Positions 1 to 63,573 of a stretch of DNA of 64,000 bases are shown here, one piece after another. The position numbers and the translations under genes were made by a program. The DNA is from Spraguea lophii (Eukaryota; Microsporidia; Spragueidae): NCBI GenBank assembly GCA_001887945.1, contig LDOQ01000342.1, positions 1 through 64,000 of the forward strand, written 5' to 3'. How positions within the stretch are numbered: the stretch's first letter is position 1; every line of letters starts with the position of its first letter. The notes under the pieces were generated by a model that worked only from the letters and a program-made list of their open reading frames with translations, did not search any database and had not been told where the DNA came from.

Positions 1-375
1 GCATTAATCTCATCTTACCTTATGCACCAGAGTGTTAGGATTTTGCGTCTGGTGCGCGTCGCCGCCCCCACTTCCAGCTCTTAAGGAATTCCCAGCCTCT
101 TTCGTTGCATAGTATTGGCCGAGTCACAAATCAATACAGGGATTGCAACTACATCAGCTGAACACTACTTTAATCTAGTAGCGGGGCCGTCATACAAGGC
201 ACAGCTATGCTGCGCTATCGAAACCTCACCCACTCAACAACCTTTTTCTTCTCTTCTGCGTTTATTATTATTATTTATTTTTTTTTTGTTTTGAAAATTT
301 TTTCTGGATGAGGGATTCGAACCCGCCAGGCTTGGGGTTTGGTTATCACCCCACGACCACTGGGCCAGGCGGGAC
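1..375 (-). mobile_element. tRNA-headed SINE, near full length, cut by window edge
   Basis: This is a minus-strand copy of the short interspersed element seen complete at 53686-54175. On the minus strand it begins at about 375 with GTCCCGCC, followed by an A-box (TGGCCCAGTGG) and a B-box (GGTTCGAATCC), the two halves of an internal RNA polymerase III promoter of tRNA type. The 3' end lies beyond position 1. It is almost identical to the 53686 copy by eye and far more GC-rich than its surroundings. It sits directly against, and interrupts, a decayed transposase at 376-795, so it inserted into that older element. The long antisense open frame through the body is not a gene. Confidence 0.85.
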
Positions 376-7406: not shown

Positions 7407-8348
7407 ATGTCTTACAATAAAATAGGCGTGCAACTGGGATTTGCTAAATCTACTGTCCAGTCTATTATTCAAAAGTTTAATAATAAAGGCGTTTTATCGG
7501 TCGAAGGGAGAGACGGGGACAAAAGGTCTAAACTTGGTGATGTCGAAATGTCATTTATATCTGACCTTGTTGATGACAACCCAATAACCACCCTTAAAAA
7601 AATAACTGAAAAGGTGAATGAAAGGTTTTTAATATCAGTTTCAACGTCGACGATCTTCAGGAACTTAAAAAATTTACATTTCTCGTTAAAATCGTTGACC
7701 ATTGTTCCAGTGAATCGAAACACTGAGGCAACAATTGAAAAACGTAGAGAATACGAAGAGAAGTTCACACGCCTATCGTATGAAAATTCATCTGAATCAT
7801 TCATATTTATAGACGAGGTAGGATTTTCTCTTGCAACTCGAGTTAAACGTGGCAGAGCAATCATTGGCCAATCTGCATATGTAGAAGTTGGAGGTGTAAG
7901 ATCAAAAAGTTACAGTTTTATAGCGGCTGTAAATAAGAATACTGTAATACACTATAAAAATAATATTAATAGTGTAAATGGTATTGATTTCAAAGATTTT
8001 TTAAAAGATTTACATAGTATTATTGCCGATAAAGGGATTAATAACCCAATATATGTTCTTGATAATGCCAGAATACATCATTATAGCGGTGTTGTCGATT
8101 TAATCTCGGAACTTAATCTTTCGATTTTATATCTTCCACCATATTCTCCGTTTTTAAACATAATAGAGAATTGCTTTAGCAAATGCAAAAACATTATTGG
8201 AAGAATGGTGATAAACACACGAGAGGAACTGTTTAGTCATATTGATGAGAGTTTTAATTGTATAACACCTGATGATCTAGCGGGATTTTTTAGGAAAATG
8301 TTGAGATATTTGCCAAGGTGTAGGAATAATGAAATTATACTTGAATAA
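7407..8348 (+). CDS. Tc1/mariner-type DDE transposase
   Basis: A 313-residue cut-and-paste transposase. The N-terminus is a helix-turn-helix (YNKIGVQLGFAKSTVQSII) followed by a second HTH region. The catalytic triad is visible as FIDEVGF (first Asp), VLDNARIHH (second Asp) and PPYSPFLNIIE (Glu). Exactly 34 residues lie between the last two acids, the DD34E spacing of Tc1-like enzymes. The true N-terminus is probably upstream: ATG 7336, preceded by CCC, opens a 15-residue frame (ending VEVRE, stop 7381-7383) that fits the family's start, and the main frame is open back to 7371 with RINPFLHNKGMSY before Met 7407. One small indel near 7376-7380 therefore splits the first helix. Either the copy is freshly inactivated or it starts at Met 7407 without its first helix. 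Confidence 0.85.
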   Translation: MSYNKIGVQLGFAKSTVQSIIQKFNNKGVLSVEGRDGDKRSKLGDVEMSFISDLVDDNPITTLKKITEKVNERFLISVSTSTIFRNLKNLHFSLKSLTIVPVNRNTEATIEKRREYEEKFTRLSYENSSESFIFIDEVGFSLATRVKRGRAIIGQSAYVEVGGVRSKSYSFIAAVNKNTVIHYKNNINSVNGIDFKDFLKDLHSIIADKGINNPIYVLDNARIHHYSGVVDLISELNLSILYLPPYSPFLNIIENCFSKCKNIIGRMVINTREELFSHIDESFNCITPDDLAGFFRKMLRYLPRCRNNEIILE

Positions 8349-28612: not shown

Positions 28613-29100
28613 TTTTTTTATTAATGGAATTTTTATTTATCAAAATTCCCTGGCCAACTGTGGCTAACAGGTCTATGACCTTCGGTTCCTCGAGCGAATC
28701 TAGGCTTGTACTAACTGATTTCGCTACAGATATGCATTAATCTCATCTTACCTTATGTTCTAGCGTGTTAGGATTTTGCGTCTGGTGCGCGTTGCCGCCC
28801 CTACTTCCAGCTCTTAAGGAATTCCCAGCCTCTTTCGTTGTATAGTATTGGCCGAATCACAAACCGATACAGGGATTGCAATTACACCAGCTAAACATTG
28901 CTTTAATCTAATAGCGGCCCGTCATACAAGGCACAGCTATATTGCCCTATCGAACCCTGACCCACTCAACAACCTTTTTCTTCTCTTCTGTCTTTTTATT
29001 ATTATTATTTTTTGTTTTGAAAATTCTTCTGAATGAGGGATTCGAACCCGCTAGATTTGGGATTTGGTTACCACCCCACGACCACTGTGCCAGGCGGGAC
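28613..29100 (-). mobile_element. SINE, full length
   Basis: Full-length minus-strand copy: 5' end GTCCCGCCTGGC at 29100 downwards, B-box near 29040, body, and A-rich 3' end near 28613. It differs from the 53686 copy by scattered substitutions, several of them C/G to T/A, and the A-box has one change (CTGTGCC in plus sense for CTGGGCC). I see no clear target-site duplication. It is older than the copies at 1-375 and 53686-54175. Confidence 0.85.
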
Positions 29101-30216: not shown

Positions 30217-31536
30217 ATGATCAGGAAAAAGAATTTATTAATTGTATTTATTATTATATCTTTACTTTTCATAATATTATTTACTAAAGAAAAACTAGAA
30301 AATAGAAAAGCATCCAAGAAAAGCAACATAGATCATTCGTTAACCAATATTTCATACAAAAAGGAACAAAATCCTATAAGCATCAATTTGAATAAATCAC
30401 AATATAAAAAATTACAATATTTAGATATTTATGATAGAGGTAAAGAAGATTGTTTTAAAGATCATTGGTCAGATAGCAATAATGGCGAATTATACAAAGA
30501 TAATCTAGAAAATGAAAAAATTGTTTCTCAACAAAATAAAATTGAACTATGTAATTTACGATTTCCTGATGATTACGAACTCGGCACGCATGCTTATTTA
30601 TACGGTAAAAACATATCACACATTAATTTGCGATTTACTATTACAATTGATAATAGTTCAGTTACACAAACCCTCAAAATATCAGATATTAATAAAAAAA
30701 TATATGAAAACCTTATAGAAAAAAATTCAAATAATATTGTTTCATTATATAATGAAATTCCTAAATGTTCATTACTACAAAATATAACAGGAGTATGTTA
30801 TATGATTTCAGCAATACAGGCTATATTTCGTTGTCAAAGTATTTTATATTTTCTTGAAAATGTATTTGACATAAACAGTATTGAACACAACCTTAAAAAT
30901 ATCTTTTCTTTAATGTGTCTTGGAAATACACATCAATATTATTTCGTACATTATTATTCGAATATTTTTTATTATACAGGATATGATTTTTGTATAAACA
31001 ATAAAGGGGGATATACTATTGAAATTCTTATAAGGATTTTTACAAATATATTTTTATCCCGTGTAGCAAAACAAATACTAGAAGAAGATTTTTATAATAG
31101 TTTCAAAAGATTTATACTTTCTATTACAGATGTGAAAGTTATAGGTAATATAAAAAAAACATTTCAGGATAATACATTCCCTTTATTCTATAAAGGCCCA
31201 TTGGATAAAAATCAAATAATACATATAGTTACATTAGAAATGAAAAAGGCAAAACATCCTGCGAATATTATTCCGATATATATTAACGATAATCCCGATA
31301 CAAATTTTTCAGAATCAGATTGGAACGATTTACAACAAGAAATAAAAACAAACAATTTAATTTATGAATTAAAATCTGTAGTTTTCCTGATCAAAAGCAA
31401 TAACTCTGGCCATGCTATAGCTTATGTAAAAGGTAAAACAGGATGGGAATTTGCAGACGACAATCATTACAGTCGTAATCACAAACCAAACTATATTAAA
31501 TATCATGTTAATTCACTTTTTTTTGAAAGAGTTTAA
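30217..31536 (+). CDS. Membrane-anchored USP-like cysteine peptidase (paralogue A)
   Basis: 439 residues. Residues 1-5 are basic, 6-22 form a hydrophobic segment (an uncleaved anchor or signal), and the rest would be lumenal or extracellular. The body matches ubiquitin-specific proteases (family C19) at its signature boxes: NITGVCYMISAIQAIFRC with Asn189 (oxyanion) five residues before Cys194, and GHAIAYVKGKTGWEFADDN with His399 and Asp415. These correspond to the USP Cys and His boxes (NxGxxCYxNS; GHYxAYV, WxxFDD). Total length and box spacing fit a minimal USP fold. The Cys box reads CYMIS where the paralogue has the canonical CYLNS. It is about 83% identical to paralogue B with no gaps. 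ATG follows AAAAAGGCCAT rather than CCC. Deubiquitinase-like activity is inferred, and a target outside the parasite cytosol is speculative. Confidence 0.75.
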   Translation: MIRKKNLLIVFIIISLLFIILFTKEKLENRKASKKSNIDHSLTNISYKKEQNPISINLNKSQYKKLQYLDIYDRGKEDCFKDHWSDSNNGELYKDNLENEKIVSQQNKIELCNLRFPDDYELGTHAYLYGKNISHINLRFTITIDNSSVTQTLKISDINKKIYENLIEKNSNNIVSLYNEIPKCSLLQNITGVCYMISAIQAIFRCQSILYFLENVFDINSIEHNLKNIFSLMCLGNTHQYYFVHYYSNIFYYTGYDFCINNKGGYTIEILIRIFTNIFLSRVAKQILEEDFYNSFKRFILSITDVKVIGNIKKTFQDNTFPLFYKGPLDKNQIIHIVTLEMKKAKHPANIIPIYINDNPDTNFSESDWNDLQQEIKTNNLIYELKSVVFLIKSNNSGHAIAYVKGKTGWEFADDNHYSRNHKPNYIKYHVNSLFFERV

Positions 31537-31696
31537 GTTAAAAAATATAGTCATAAACAATCCGAAACAACAAAAATAAATTAAAGAAGTTTAATGATAT
31601 TTAAATATTTTAATATGTGTTTATAATATAATTTCAATCATAATTACTAAAATGTTTTTATTGAATAAAGAATATTTGCTTTATTCGTAACTTCCA

Positions 31697-31840
31697 AGGT
31701 AAGATGAGGTTAATGCATATCTGTAGCAAAACCAGTTAGTACAAGCTTAAATTCGCTCGAGGAACCGAAGGTCACAGACCATGGTAGGCCGCAACCGGCC
31801 AGGAAGCTTTGATAAATAAAAGTTTCATTCGTAAAAAAAA
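31697..31840 (+). mobile_element. 5'-truncated SINE with 11-bp target duplication
   Basis: The insert begins AGGTAAGATGAGG and ends in the A-run after CATTCGT. It is flanked by CGTAACTTCCA at 31686-31696 and 31841-31851. The duplicated paralogous segment downstream of copy B (41310-41330) lacks the insert, giving an empty-site comparison. Truncation at the 5' end plus target duplication indicates reverse-transcription-based insertion. Confidence 0.9.
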
Positions 31841-39454: not shown

Positions 39455-41357
39455 ATCAAAAGTTATATTATTTCTTTCTCTTCTTTCGAAAGAATATGTA
39501 TTTTTATATTACTGCTCATCTTTTTTCGATATTATCTTCCCTTTTGTAAGTCTCTAAAAAATTATTCCATATTTAATACTAGTAGTATTTGATATAGAAA
39601 GAACTATTTTTGCCGTGTTTTTCATCATTATTGTTTTTTGGATTCCTCGGTACTAATCTTTTTATTTTTTCTTGTATTATCTATCGTATTTGTGTTTATT
39701 TGATTTGTAAATTCTTCTATGATAATATTTTTTAAATATTTTATTCTTTTCGAAAATCGAAAGAACAATCTTATATCATTAAAAAAATTGCTTGATATTT
39801 TTTTGATAATAAATAAAAGAAAAAAAAATAAAAAGGCCATATGATCAGGAAAAAGAATTTATTAATTACATTTATTATTATATCTTTACTTTTCATAATA
39901 TTATTTACTAAAGAAAAACTAGAAAATAGGAAAGCATCCAAGAAAAGCAACATAGATTATTCGTTAACCAATATTTCATACAAAAAGGAACAAAATCCTA
40001 TATGTATCAATTTGAACAACTCACAATATAAAAAATTACAATATTTAGATATTTATGATAGAGGTAAAGAAGATTGTTTTAAAGATCATTGCTCAGATAG
40101 CAATAGTGACGAATTATACGAAGATAGTTTAGAAGATGAAAAAATTGTTTCTCAACAAAATAAAATTGAATTATGTAATTTACGATTTCCTGATAACTAT
40201 AAAATCAATACGAATTCTTATTTAAAAGATAGAAATATAAACGTTGTGTCTTTACGATTTGGTATTACAGTTGATAATAGTTTAGATACTCAAACTCTCA
40301 GAAAACCAGATAAGGATGAAAAAATATATGAAAACCTTATAGAAAAAAATTCAAATGATATTGTTTCATTATACAATGAAATTCCTAAATGTTCATTACT
40401 ACAAAATATAACAGGAATATGTTATTTGAATTCTGCAATACAGGCTATATTTCGTTGTCAAAGTATTTTATATTTTCTTGAAAATGTATTTGACATAAAT
40501 AGTGTTGAACATAACCTTAAAAACATCTTTTCATTAATGTGTCTTGGAAATAAACATCAATATTATTTTGTACATTATTATTCGAATATTTTTTATTATA
40601 CAGGGTATGATTTTTGTATAAACAATAAAGGGGGATATACTATTGAAATTCTTATAAGGATTTTTACAAATATATTTTTATCCCATGTAGCAAAACAAAC
40701 ATTGGAAAAAGATTTTTATAATAGTTTCAAAAGATTTATACTTTCTATTACAGATGTGAAAGTTATAGGTTATATAAAAAAAGTATTTCAGGACAGCACA
40801 CACCCTTTATTTTATAAGGGTCCATTGAATAAAAATCAAATAATAGATATAATTACATTGGAAATGGAACAGTCAAGACATCCTGCGAATATTATTCCAA
40901 TATATATTAATGATAATCCCAACATAAATTTTTCAGAATCAGATTGGATCGATTTAAAGCAAGAAATAAGAACAAACAATTTGGTTTATGAATTAAAATC
41001 TGTAACGTTCACGTTGGAAAAAAATAACGAGGGTCATGCTATAGCTTATGTAAAGGGTAAAACAGAATGGGAATTTGCAGACGACAATGTTTACGATCCT
41101 AATCACAAATCAGACTACACTGGATATCATGTTAGTTCACTTCTTTTTGAAAGAGTTTAAGTTAAAAAATAGATTCATAAACAATCCGAAACAATAGAAA
41201 TAAATTAAAGAAGTTTAATGATATTTACATATTCTAATATGTGTTTACAATATAATTTAATCATAATTACTAAAATCGTTTTATTTAATAAAGAATATTT
41301 GCTTTATTTTTAATTTTCATGTAGGATGATCCATTATTTTATTTAATAAAAAGCAGG
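39455..41357 (+). repeat. Segmental duplication, copy B (partner 29735-31886)
   Basis: Same organisation as copy A without the SINE and without the extra 100 bp upstream. A different SINE, in the opposite orientation, starts just after the shared part ends. Confidence 0.85.
39841..41160 (+). CDS. Membrane-anchored USP-like cysteine peptidase (paralogue B)
   Basis: 439 residues with the same plan as paralogue A: basic start, hydrophobic segment 6-22, then a USP-like domain with Asn189 and Cys194 in NITGICYLNSAIQAIFRC and His399/Asp415 in GHAIAYVKGKTEWEFADDN. Its Cys box carries the canonical CYLNS, so this copy looks the more orthodox enzyme. Differences from A (about 75 of 439) are not spread evenly. 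A block at residues 119-160 differs at about half its positions, and the segment after the catalytic Asp also varies, while 161-290 is almost invariant. ATG again follows AAAAAGGCCAT. A role as a secreted or endomembrane deubiquitinase-like enzyme is inferred from anchor plus active site; the substrate is unknown. Confidence 0.78.
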   Translation: MIRKKNLLITFIIISLLFIILFTKEKLENRKASKKSNIDYSLTNISYKKEQNPICINLNNSQYKKLQYLDIYDRGKEDCFKDHCSDSNSDELYEDSLEDEKIVSQQNKIELCNLRFPDNYKINTNSYLKDRNINVVSLRFGITVDNSLDTQTLRKPDKDEKIYENLIEKNSNDIVSLYNEIPKCSLLQNITGICYLNSAIQAIFRCQSILYFLENVFDINSVEHNLKNIFSLMCLGNKHQYYFVHYYSNIFYYTGYDFCINNKGGYTIEILIRIFTNIFLSHVAKQTLEKDFYNSFKRFILSITDVKVIGYIKKVFQDSTHPLFYKGPLNKNQIIDIITLEMEQSRHPANIIPIYINDNPNINFSESDWIDLKQEIRTNNLVYELKSVTFTLEKNNEGHAIAYVKGKTEWEFADDNVYDPNHKSDYTGYHVSSLLFERV

Positions 41358-41370
41358 TTTTTTACATCAC

Positions 41371-41737
41371 TTTACTAATGAAACTTTTACTTATCAAAGT
41401 TCCACGGCTGGTTGCGGCCTATTATGGTCTGTGACCTTCGGTTCCTCGAGCGAATTTAAACTTGTACTAACTGGTTTCGCTACAAATATGCATTAATCTC
41501 ATCTTACCTTATGCTCCAGAATGTTAGGATTTTGCGTATGGTACATGTCGAATCCCCTCCTAGCTTTTAAGGAAGACCCGGCCTCTTGCGTGCATAATAT
41601 TGGCCGAGTCACAAATCAATACAGGGATTGCAATTACATCAGTTAACCACTACTTTAATCTGGTAATGGGCCTCGCGCAAGACATATCCAAAGTTACATT
41701 ATCGAATCCTCACCCACTCAATATCCTTTAATGAAAT
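41371..41737 (-). mobile_element. SINE, older copy lacking the tRNA-like head
   Basis: A minus-strand copy whose 3' end is near 41371. The body is followed to CCCACTCAAT near 41735, after which the polypyrimidine spacer and tRNA-like head are missing. It has numerous substitutions relative to the 53686 copy. It begins 14 bp after the end of duplicated segment B. Confidence 0.75.
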
Positions 41738-42342
41738 ATGTATTTCAGTTAAAAATACGTTTTTTTATTACCTTTTTAACATTTTTTTAAAAAAGTTTTT
41801 GAAATATTTATAATATGTTTAAACTAGTTTTTAAATACAAAAACACACTATTCTATATTCTTAATTTAATATAAAGTATTTTAATAAAATTTAAATAATA
41901 AACAAAAATATTTAATTTTTTAAAAAATCAGCTTTTTCTATTTTTGCATTATAGCAGTATAACCACGACACAATTTTTTCGCTGTATGCCCGTCCCTGTA
42001 AATTAGATACATAAATATAATAATACTGAATCAAATTAAGCATATACTAATAAAAAAGTAATTCAAAATTGTTATATGAATTAGAATATAATAAGATGAC
42101 ACTAAAAAATCAATTTTATTGCTAGCTATTTAACCTATTAAAATTATAAAAATATAAATTAATATGAATAAAAAGCATAACGCCCAAAAAAACAAATATT
42201 ATACAATTATATAAATATAATAACTATAATTATAATTTAAATAAAAAAATAATTCTTCATGATCGATTTAAAGGTAAAATTACATATAAAAATGTAAGAT
42301 TAAATAAATATCATCTAAAAAAATATAAACACTTAAAAATGT
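41738..42342. other. Intergenic AT-rich stretch
   Basis: Nothing recognised. It lies downstream of the convergent ends of the peptidase and ARP genes. Confidence 0.4.
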
Positions 42343-46599: not shown

Positions 46600-46665
46600 C
46601 CAAAATGGTCATAGACCATAATAGGCCAGGAAATTTTCTATAAATAAAAGCTTTATAAAAAATAG
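46600..46665 (+). mobile_element. Eroded SINE 3' end
   Basis: GGTCATAGACCATAATAGGC, then CAGGAAATTTTCTATAAATA and AAAGCTTTATAAAAAA follow the SINE 3' end with many changes. Confidence 0.6.
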
Positions 46666-47339
46666 GTAAAATATATGTGTATTCAATAACATAAGTTAAA
46701 TACATTAGAGGATATCTAGTTATTATATTGAAATAGTGCTTAACTTATGTGGTTGTAATTTCTATAGTTGGTAATTCAGTCAAGAATATATTAAAGAAAT
46801 TATAATTATATTGAAACTGATGATTGCATAATATACAAATAAACATAAAATAAAATTAATATTTATATGTAGTTAAACTATTTAATACAAATTTCTCATT
46901 GTCTTAATAAAACAACAATCTCAAATCATTTGATTCTAATAAAATATAATTTATAAAAAATTATCTTTTTTTTTGAAAATAGTTAAATCACATGAGAAAT
47001 TCTTATCAAAAAAATTTATTCTTTTTAAAAACTACAAATTAAATAAGAAATATACAAATTAAATGAAGGTTTATATTATAATAATTAAAATTGATTGAAA
47101 TATATTATATAATTTAAATGTTCTAGAATTATATATAATTATTTCTTTATAAATCATTTTTTATAATAATTTCATATTCATTTATTATATATATTATAAT
47201 TATTTTATATTTATTATAAATCTGTCTTATATTCATTATAATCTTTATAAATTCATTAACATATCATTATAAATCATTTATATCGTTATCATTTAATTAT
47301 CATTTTTATATCATCACTTTAATATCTATTATTCCAATT
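46666..47339. other. Intergenic AT-rich stretch
   Basis: Repetitive TATATTATAATTAT-like text; no gene. Confidence 0.4.
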
Positions 47340-53337: not shown

Positions 53338-53671
53338 CTGTTGTTATGATCATTTATTTTTATAAAACAAAATGTGATAAATCAAAAGATGTGTAAGATA
53401 ATATTGTTTGTGATAAACATTTTCAAATGATTTAAAATATCTTTTATTTCTTCTCTATTTACCTATCATACTTATTTCTTTAACATAAGAAAATTTATTT
53501 ACGATGTATTATTATTCTAACACGTTATTTTATATTTTACTTATTTCTTATTCATCTTATATAAATTATATGAATACATCTAATTATATCTTCTCTTAAA
53601 CTTTTAAATAGATTATTTTAAACCAATACCTTTTGTTAATGATATTTCATTGGTTAGATAATTCTTGTAAT
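53338..53671. other. Intergenic AT-rich stretch
   Basis: No feature up to the SINE target site duplication at 53672. Confidence 0.4.
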
Positions 53672-53685
53672 ACAATATCATTACA

Positions 53686-54175
53686 GTCCCGCCTGGCCCA
53701 GTGGTCGTGGGGTGGTAACCAAACCCCAAGCCTGGCGGGTTCGAATCCCTCATCCAGAAAAATTTTCAAAACAAAAAAATAATAATAATAAATGCAGAAG
53801 AGAAGAAAAAGGTTGTTGAGTGGGTGAGGTTTCGATAGCGCAGCATAGCTGTGCCTTGTATGACGGCCCCGCTACTAGATTAAAGTAGTGTTTAGCTGAT
53901 GTAGTTGCAATCCCTGTATTGATTAGTGACTCGGCCAATACTATGCAACGAAAGAGGCTGGGAATTCCTTAAGAGTTGGAAGTGGGGGCGGCGACGCGCA
54001 CCAGACGCAAAATCCTAACACTCTGGAGCATAAGGTAAGATGAGATTAATGCATATCTGTAGCGAAACCAGTTAGTACAAGTTTAATGTCGCTCGAGGAA
54101 CCGAAGGTCACAGACCATGGTAGGCCGCAACCGGCCAGGAAGCTTTGATAAATAAAAGTTTCATTCGTAAAAAAA
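53686..54175 (+). mobile_element. SINE, full-length reference copy with target-site duplication
   Basis: Best copy of the family, about 490 bp. Order: GTCCCGCC start, A-box TGGCCCAGTGG (53694-53704), B-box GGTTCGAATCC (53738-53748), an A-rich spacer with AAT repeats, a unique GC-rich body of about 350 bp, and a 3' end with A-run (54168-54176). ACAATATCATTACAGT occurs at 53672-53687 and at 54176-54191 (the last one or two bases may belong to the element). The head resembles a tRNA but its anticodon arm does not fold canonically. No protein is encoded: the antisense frame at 53750-53938 is not conserved in other copies. Internal promoter, A-tail and duplication indicate transcription by polymerase III and mobilisation by a partner reverse transcriptase not seen here. 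Confidence 0.93.
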
Positions 54176-54191
54176 ACAATATCATTACAGT

Positions 54192-54554
54192 GATAAAATA
54201 AAAATATATCTTTATAAAATATTTCTTATAATGAATAACAATCTTAGTACTATTTTTATAACAGATAATATTTCTATTACGTTTTCTACAATATATTTTA
54301 AATTTCTTTATTTTTATTTACCACAAAATGAATCGGTTGTTTTAAAACAATTAAATATTATTATTATAAAAATAAAGATAACATATTTATTTTGCTATTA
54401 GTAATAATAGAAATTATAATATTATTATTTTTTAAATTAATTACTTAAGAATCAAAGAACATATATTACAATAGATTACAATCAAATAGAAATATTTTAT
54501 AAATAAATGTTTTATAAAAAATATTAAATATAATATACAGTTAAATATTATTAT
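54192..54554. other. Intergenic AT-rich stretch
   Basis: No feature seen. Confidence 0.4.
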
Positions 54555-56520: not shown

Positions 56521-58635
<2,115 letters not shown>

Positions 58636-62599: not shown

Positions 62600-63573
62600 T
62601 TATATAAAATGTTCCTTGAATAGAAATGACAAGACATTATTTTTTTCAATAAAAATTTTTTTTCTTTTATTTATAATAATTGTTATGTAGAAAACAACTT
62701 AAAACTTTAAGAATTGTGATTTACTATATAATATTTAAAAGTAATTACTTAATTAGCTTATATATAAAAATGGCATTTTATATTTATTTGATATTTTTTT
62801 TAAAAATCAGCAATTAATTGTATTCGTTATGAATAATTATAAATATTAAATAAAAAAACGTATATTGAGAAGTCTTATTTTTGACAGAAAATTTAACTAT
62901 TTTCATATAAATTAAAGTATATTAGGTGATAATTACCCTTTTTCAAATCATATTTTAATTATCATCAAATGTTAGAGTGATTGAAGCCGTTATAAACTAA
63001 TAGGTATTATTATTAGTTTATTATTATTTGATATTATCTAAAAGATAAAGTTAGTTTTAATTTGGAATTTAGATAAAATATCTTAAATAGGTTTATCGAC
63101 CATAAATTATATTGTAAGATAAAGTTAATGTATATATGTAAAAGACCGTTAAAAAAATTTATTGTCGTAAAGTGATAATTAAATGTTAAATTTAATGAAA
63201 TTGAATTTTCAAAAAAATAATAATGAATATATGTGTATTCAGTTATTTGAATTAACTATTCTTTATATGATTGTTTTACTGTTATATCGAAGCAGTAATA
63301 TAATATTATATTTACAATCGTGAAATTGATTTGTGATTCTATTAATACTATGCCATAAAGAAAATAAAATCTCATTTTAAATAAAAAAGAACGATAATAC
63401 ATATTACACGCTGATTTATAACCACTGGAATAAAGATAAACTAAAATTAATAAATATCTACGATAAAATTAATAAGTATAAATAGATAAAAAGATTAAAG
63501 ATCTTAAACTACGATGAATCACAATTATTCAAACGATTTGAATATAATTAAAATATTATTATTAAAAAAACTT
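62600..63573. other. Intergenic stretch
   Basis: About 970 bp without gene. GTAAGATAAAGTTAATGTAT at 63115-63134 may be an eroded SINE segment. Confidence 0.4.

Follow-up and report, generated by a model that had tools for sequence, protein, structure and literature searches.

The GC-rich repeat that recurs in this microsporidian DNA is a short interspersed element (SINE), and its copies indicate that the family moved recently. Very probably, it is a non-autonomous element that has been mobilised by an APE-type LINE through a 3' tail common to both, and that was still mobile in the recent past. As a family the SINE is new, but its kind is known; what surprises is its junctions with genes of RNA polymerase III (pol III), where SINEs lie directly behind tRNA and 5S genes. 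The window, i.e. the whole stretch of DNA that was analysed, comprises the first 64 kb of a contig of 125,834 bases in an assembly of 5.27 Mb and 73 contigs. A full-length copy within it has the following features:

53672–53685, plus strand: 5' target-site duplication ACAATATCATTACA, 14 bp, one G more possible
53686–54175, plus strand: full-length SINE copy of 490 bp, bounded by the 14-bp direct repeat
53694–53704, plus strand: A box TGGCCCAGTGG, consensus position 9
53738–53748, plus strand: B box GGTTCGAATCC, consensus position ~53
54100–54136, plus strand: two neighbouring hairpins (54100–54121 and 54123–54136), common to the LINE 3' UTR
54148–54168, plus strand: terminal block ATAAATAAAAGTTTCATTCGT, resembling the LINE 3' end
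54169–54175, plus strand: A-tail, 3' end of the SINE
54176–54189, plus strand: 3' target-site duplication ACAATATCATTACA, 14 bp, one G more possible

The GC content of the element is 46% compared to 24% for the window, in agreement with the GC-rich body that the original prediction had described. This body has no clear relative in Rfam; at relaxed thresholds, the region 53600–54250 gave three weak matches only, two of which were a T-loop-like stretch. The A and B boxes constitute a putative internal pol III promoter, from which the SINE is probably transcribed by this polymerase. The element had also been described as tRNA-headed; the head has the two boxes, but neither ARAGORN nor the Rfam tRNA model recognised it as a tRNA. 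The best alignment of the head with the tRNA genes of the genome (50 of 57 compared) was with Arg(TCG), with a score of 21 compared to at most 11 for 100 shuffles. TTTT, present once, is the longest T-run of the SINE consensus; a pol III transcript would therefore need to terminate at this site or in the flanks.

A profile search of the window at E ≤ 0.05 yielded nine SINE stretches, of which six are clear copies and three are eroded pieces, matching the at least six clear and several eroded copies noted beforehand. The profile hits on the clear copies span 1–372, 2482–2643, 28615–29097, 31696–31837, 41371–41729 and, for the full-length copy, 53689–54173. The stretches other than the full-length copy are:

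1–375, minus strand: SINE copy with element positions 367-1, interrupted by the contig start
2479–2641, minus strand: 5'-truncated SINE copy, ~8-bp repeat by eye
about 28613–29100, minus strand: older full-length SINE copy, 89%, no flanking repeat seen by eye
about 31696–31839, plus strand: 5'-truncated SINE copy, 97%, 11-bp repeat CGTAACTTCC by eye
about 41371–41786, minus strand: older SINE copy, 80%, no flanking repeat seen by eye
46607–46897, plus strand: eroded SINE pieces starting at 46607 and 46719, from the profile
63254–63476, plus strand: eroded SINE piece, from the profile

The repeats at 31696 and 2479 agree with the 11-bp and ~8-bp duplications that had been claimed. Other features of the window are a Tc1/mariner-like reading frame at 7407–8348, which encodes a DDE_3 transposase domain, and two paralogous frames of 439 aa with similar flanks (30217–31536 and 39841–41160), 9.6 kb apart.

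Pattern searches of the genome allowing up to three mismatches detected the head at 178 places and the 3' hairpin at 161, compared to none for the reversed controls, so the SINE is not a product of chance and the observation of a family in the window is confirmed. One hairpin pattern, used for an exact search of viral-contig and genome-contig collections, had no match there. When the whole assembly was searched with 53686–54175, as had been proposed, the best 40 of 448 candidates, the window copy included, were 97–100% identical over almost the full length. Thirty young copies differ from the consensus by 1.1% on average (range 0.4–2.5%), and two copies at different loci, L013 and L020, are identical over the 484 compared positions (tail columns excluded). 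A flanking repeat score of at least 12 was obtained for 26 of the 30 young copies, and a clear repeat is absent in four (L002, L014, L015 and L016); as a control, each young copy was scored against up to 60 mispaired flanks, which gave at most 11, except for a score of 13 at L028 that equals the true score of this locus. The target duplications vary in length (12–17 bp) and the A-tails are mostly 7–19 nt long. The near-identical copies with intact duplications, including the identical pair, point to recent movement, as the original prediction had it, and the duplications, the 5' truncation, the A-tails and the 3' sequence shared with a LINE support the identification as a SINE. At L002, a young SINE is nested in an older one.

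Fifteen old copies have diverged by 14–38%, with G>A and C>T as the dominant substitutions, which is expected in an AT-rich genome. Their best-kept stretch, consensus positions 466–480 (90%), is located inside the LINE-like terminal block and is overlapped by the block at 54148–54168 of the window copy. Among 11 older or truncated copies scored for repeats, three of which adjoin tRNA genes, ten had a score of at most 5, the 95th percentile of the controls being 5.

A LINE partner had been postulated as well, and a LINE with a matching 3' end was found, albeit only as copies that are broken in frame, truncated or cut by contig ends; no intact copy was seen among the LINE copies read in the assembly, and we infer an active one in this genome. 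A six-frame search of the genome for RVT_1 gave nine matches. The start of contig C72 carries a 458-aa frame with an endonuclease and the first part of a reverse transcriptase (RT), in a copy that the contig end interrupts and in which the beginning of the endonuclease is in another frame; the Pfam matches of this fragment, Exo_endo_phos_2 and RVT_1, both have an E value of 0.0016 and are under the curated cut-offs. Using phmmer, 49 relatives of this frame were found among candidates of about 252–801 aa, a range that leaves full-length ORF2 proteins above ~800 aa outside, with an unnamed protein (P0001, 31%) at the top, followed by the best named relatives, LINE proteins of Smittium culicis termed 'Transposon TX1'. 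The identity to the five best Smittium hits is 27–36%, and the present assembly holds only parts of the element. The start of C21 contains an apparent C-terminal part of the LINE, with zinc-knuckle motifs by eye, and the 3' UTR. The partner is probably an APE-RT-like, APE-type non-LTR LINE of the same genome, known from these fragments. At L078:492–1786, two successive zinc-knuckle stretches seem to be present by eye (zf-RVT matches with E of only 0.08 and 0.11), so the LINE C-terminal domain may be duplicated there. LINE copies L079, L078, L102, L103, L106 and L108 lie close to a contig end or directly at it (C72, C21, both ends of C63, C11 and C61), owing either to repeat collapse or to a subtelomeric position. 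The RVT_1 match on C73 was rejected as the partner because Pfam places a protease and an RNase H domain, typical of LTR elements, beside it, and the one on C44 as gypsy-like, of LTR type, by eye. Further matches are at C48:16630, C56:47827 and C5:73895, and a 1239-codon frame for an Asn-rich protein (L065, C2:66528–67271, RVT_1 E 1.9e-11) is possibly, at a guess, a telomerase reverse transcriptase.

The SINE 3' tail and the LINE 3' UTR have the two hairpins, the last ~30 nt and the A-tract in common, and an identical hairpin pair was predicted by folding of two LINE copies and of the SINE consensus. For a LINE 3' query, 51 matches were listed for the best 40 of 108 candidates, consisting of 16 LINE 3' ends or pieces, 15 of which were read (all except the one on C9), and 35 matches of two short blocks, which fall in SINEs. 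Among the matches listed, query positions 179–233 matched SINEs at 84–86% (E 1.8e-9 to 6.3e-9) and positions 339–368 at 83–84%, with E values of only 0.26–0.9. Repeats were recognised by eye at five 5'-truncated LINE copies (L109, L110, L112, L113 and L114), possibly at L111 and not clearly at L104; L109 and L110 are truncated just 5' of the hairpins. The LINE tail at L113 is, by eye, nested in an old SINE. According to the proposed mechanism, pol III would produce SINE RNA from the A and B boxes, ending in the shared tail of two hairpins, ~30 terminal nt and A-tract that is visible in the copies; the LINE RT would recognise this tail, and the copy would be inserted by target-primed reverse transcription, for which the A-tails, the 12–17-bp duplications and the 5' truncation of the SINE copies, and the like seen by eye in LINE copies, argue.

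SINEs with a tRNA head and a LINE-derived 3' end are known, e.g. UnaSINE with its partner UnaL2. The element described here resembles this pair in its pol III boxes, its body, the LINE-like 3' hairpins plus tail, and the LINE-type duplications. It differs in its microsporidian host, in a head not recognised as tRNA, in a tail where two hairpins are combined with a terminal block of ~30 nt and an A-tract, and in that the SINE lacks the ~105 nt of LINE 3' UTR between the common blocks.

Contigs often begin within the repeat: among the first 100 of the 161 places of the 3' hairpin, six contigs (C15, C25, C54, C56, C58 and C60) start at one SINE position, with the hairpin at base 65 or 66. Several others (C3, C19, C35, C36, C46 and C48) begin in reverse within a SINE head, and the contig of the window also starts inside a copy. 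The assembly seems to break at SINE copies. These contig starts would also fit a repeat that is itself an assembly artefact, a satellite or a DNA transposon derivative (MITE). We consider such an origin highly improbable, because the copies are dispersed, have differing flanks, repeats of variable length, A-tails and 5' truncation, and end like a LINE. The duplications and tails already contradict it; copies lacking duplications genome-wide, or a unit belonging to a DNA transposon or satellite, had been named as the outcomes that would speak against a SINE.

The attribution to a microsporidian host agrees with the GFAT gene of the window (56521–58635), whose four best full-length named relatives, among the best 120 of 7998 hits, are all microsporidian, namely Binucleata daphniae (70%) and Hamiltosporidium magnivora, Dictyocoela muelleri and Astathelohania contejeani (69% each). 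One higher-scoring record, scorpion-named, is 57% identical over 61% of the query, and none of the matches listed is closer than 70% except the window's own protein. The Rfam model of the microsporidian SSU had no match in the assembly (best 5 of 45 candidates scored). SINEs had been said to be rarely described in microsporidia. Among the papers listed, no description of a microsporidian SINE family was found in titles and abstract starts of the open-access literature; this point is weakened in that the accessible part of one paper has a SINE row of 0.18% in the repeat table of Nosema bombycis (PMC3614468). The accessible parts of other reports on microsporidian repeats give LINEs without the word SINE (PMC4202319), contain neither SINE nor LINE as a whole word (PMC7313128), or do not have SINE among their words (PMC12449221, PMC12558613 and PMC13174016).

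In order to describe the junctions, we refer to 57 tRNA genes (best 63 of 485 candidates scored), whose flanks were read for ~1.5 kb per side (30 genes, shorter at L041 and L042 with contig ends near), 600 nt (7) or 150 nt (20). In seven of the 57, a same-strand SINE starts 9–21 nt after the tRNA match (profile, E ≤ 0.05); no antisense SINE was found at these 3' positions and none within 25 nt upstream of any of the 57 genes. The junction profile was made from 54 SINE stretches, three of which come from the seven loci; an earlier profile made from young copies only found the SINE at all four of these loci that were in its search. Seven SINEs in the first 25 nt compare to 0.07 or 0.10 expected, depending on which of two densities is used (Poisson P ~1.5e-12 or ~1.8e-11, respectively), with the 25-nt limit set after the data were seen. 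Ten more hits are scattered over the other ~102 kb of tRNA flanks, and random anchors in the window had at most three adjacent SINEs in 20000 trials. Among nine 5S genes, for each of which 80 nt downstream were read, one (L147) is followed after 14 nt by a truncated same-strand SINE (E 4.7e-6), so that 8 of 66 pol III genes have an adjoining SINE, always on the same strand. The SINE starts at the T-run or a few nt beyond. In L140 and L147, the SINE seems to have lost its 5' part up to nearly the same point of the element (~268; by BLAST and by eye, respectively). One U6 gene was found in the genome, and the LINE pieces in the tRNA flanks are only SINE-shared blocks and two short matches.

The seven tRNA-adjacent copies differ by 9–37% from the young consensus, whereas none of the 40 best young full-length places and one of 100 exact heads listed (L037) begin in the 40 nt that follow a tRNA on the same strand. 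These copies either date from an earlier phase of the family or persist longer at such sites. All seven SINE-adjacent tRNAs have a paralogue of at least 90% identity without adjoining SINE (P 0.0025; 26 of the 57 genes belong to families of two or more members). Five are identical to the paralogue, the tRNA at L134 has two substitutions and the one at L121 has extra bases near its 5' end, differences as retrocopies might have.

One explanation, which would add to the SINE-LINE mechanism above and to which we give about an even chance, is that the RT, having copied the SINE RNA, jumped to a pre-tRNA or 5S RNA at its U-tailed 3' end. Gene, T-run, SINE and A-tail would then be inserted as a unit, the machinery would duplicate pol III genes, and a repeat is expected around gene plus SINE. 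The constant strand, the position at or just after the T-run and the paralogues fit this template jumping, although ~8 nt at L134 and a few nt at L140 separate T-run and SINE, and the bias towards multi-copy tRNAs equally fits tolerated insertion near redundant genes. At L140, the post-tail sequence TACAGAACTTCTT matches TACAAAACTTCTT, which ends 7 nt upstream of the tRNA, at 12 of 13 positions, and this anchored score was reached by none of 56 other tRNA upstream regions and by 1 of 20000 random 40-mers. A clear bracketing repeat was, however, obtained at this one of six loci only; at L134 it was weak (11 of 56 controls equally good), and none was found at L032, L045, L060 and L121 in the anchored test or, clearly, in 106 nt at the 5S locus L147. 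In an unanchored test of the seven loci, the score of L140 (10) was only equal to the highest swapped control, and that of L060 (11) exceeded the controls with a repeat that is not beside its tail. A missing repeat at the junctions says little, since a clear one is likewise absent in seven of the eight old or truncated copies that do not adjoin a tRNA gene. Chimeras of LINE-1 with non-coding RNAs are reported in the accessible part of PMC13174262, and in template jumping, too, the copy of a small RNA would become linked to an insert of LINE type; unlike there, the 5' partners here are tRNA or 5S genes, with five of seven tRNAs identical to a paralogue.

Alternatively, the LINE machinery may be tethered to pol III genes and insert just behind the terminator, which we regard as possible but less probable. 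The excess of SINEs in the first 25 nt is what such targeting would give, and a duplicated T-run would be expected; possible ones are at L045 (ATATTTTT) and L037 (CGTTTTTT). Both score 8, however, with swapped controls up to 10, and the score at L045 was equalled in 18 of 56 flanks of other tRNAs as well as in 1134 of 20000 random 30-mers. The divergence of the seven adjacent copies and the scarcity of young copies and exact heads behind tRNAs also argue against targeting, as does the repeat at L140, which encloses the tRNA as well as the SINE. A preference of the endonuclease for T-runs was rejected as the sole cause, with no T-run consensus in the 27 young target sites listed. According to the accessible parts of a 2018 review (PMC5911963), the Dictyostelium element TRE3 inserts 40–150 bp and the LTR element Skipper-2 8–23 bp downstream of tRNA genes, and downstream insertion is known only in dictyostelids. 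The present junctions are similar in that a retroelement is located downstream of tRNA genes, for TRE3 also in the same orientation, but consist of a SINE, 9–21 nt downstream and once also at 5S. By the same counts of young places and listed heads, most new insertions are not at tRNA genes, as in TRE3 they would be. We lean towards chimeras over targeted insertion, much of this lean being due to the single strong locus, L140. Our tentative proposal, to which we assign slightly less than an even chance, is that the LINE RT repeatedly switched from the SINE RNA that it was copying to pol III transcripts, and that by inserting tRNA-SINE and 5S-SINE chimeras the SINE-LINE system spreads and multiplies functional tRNA and 5S genes despite the reduction of this genome.

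Genome reduction is studied in microsporidia as models, and a recently mobile SINE persists with a LINE partner in this 5-Mb genome, with the 3' hairpins common to both as the likely recognition signal. If the junctions are targeted insertions, they would add a further lineage, besides the dictyostelids covered in the accessible parts of PMC5911963, with retroelements behind tRNA genes. If they are chimeras, new tRNA and 5S genes would arise there by retrotransposition.
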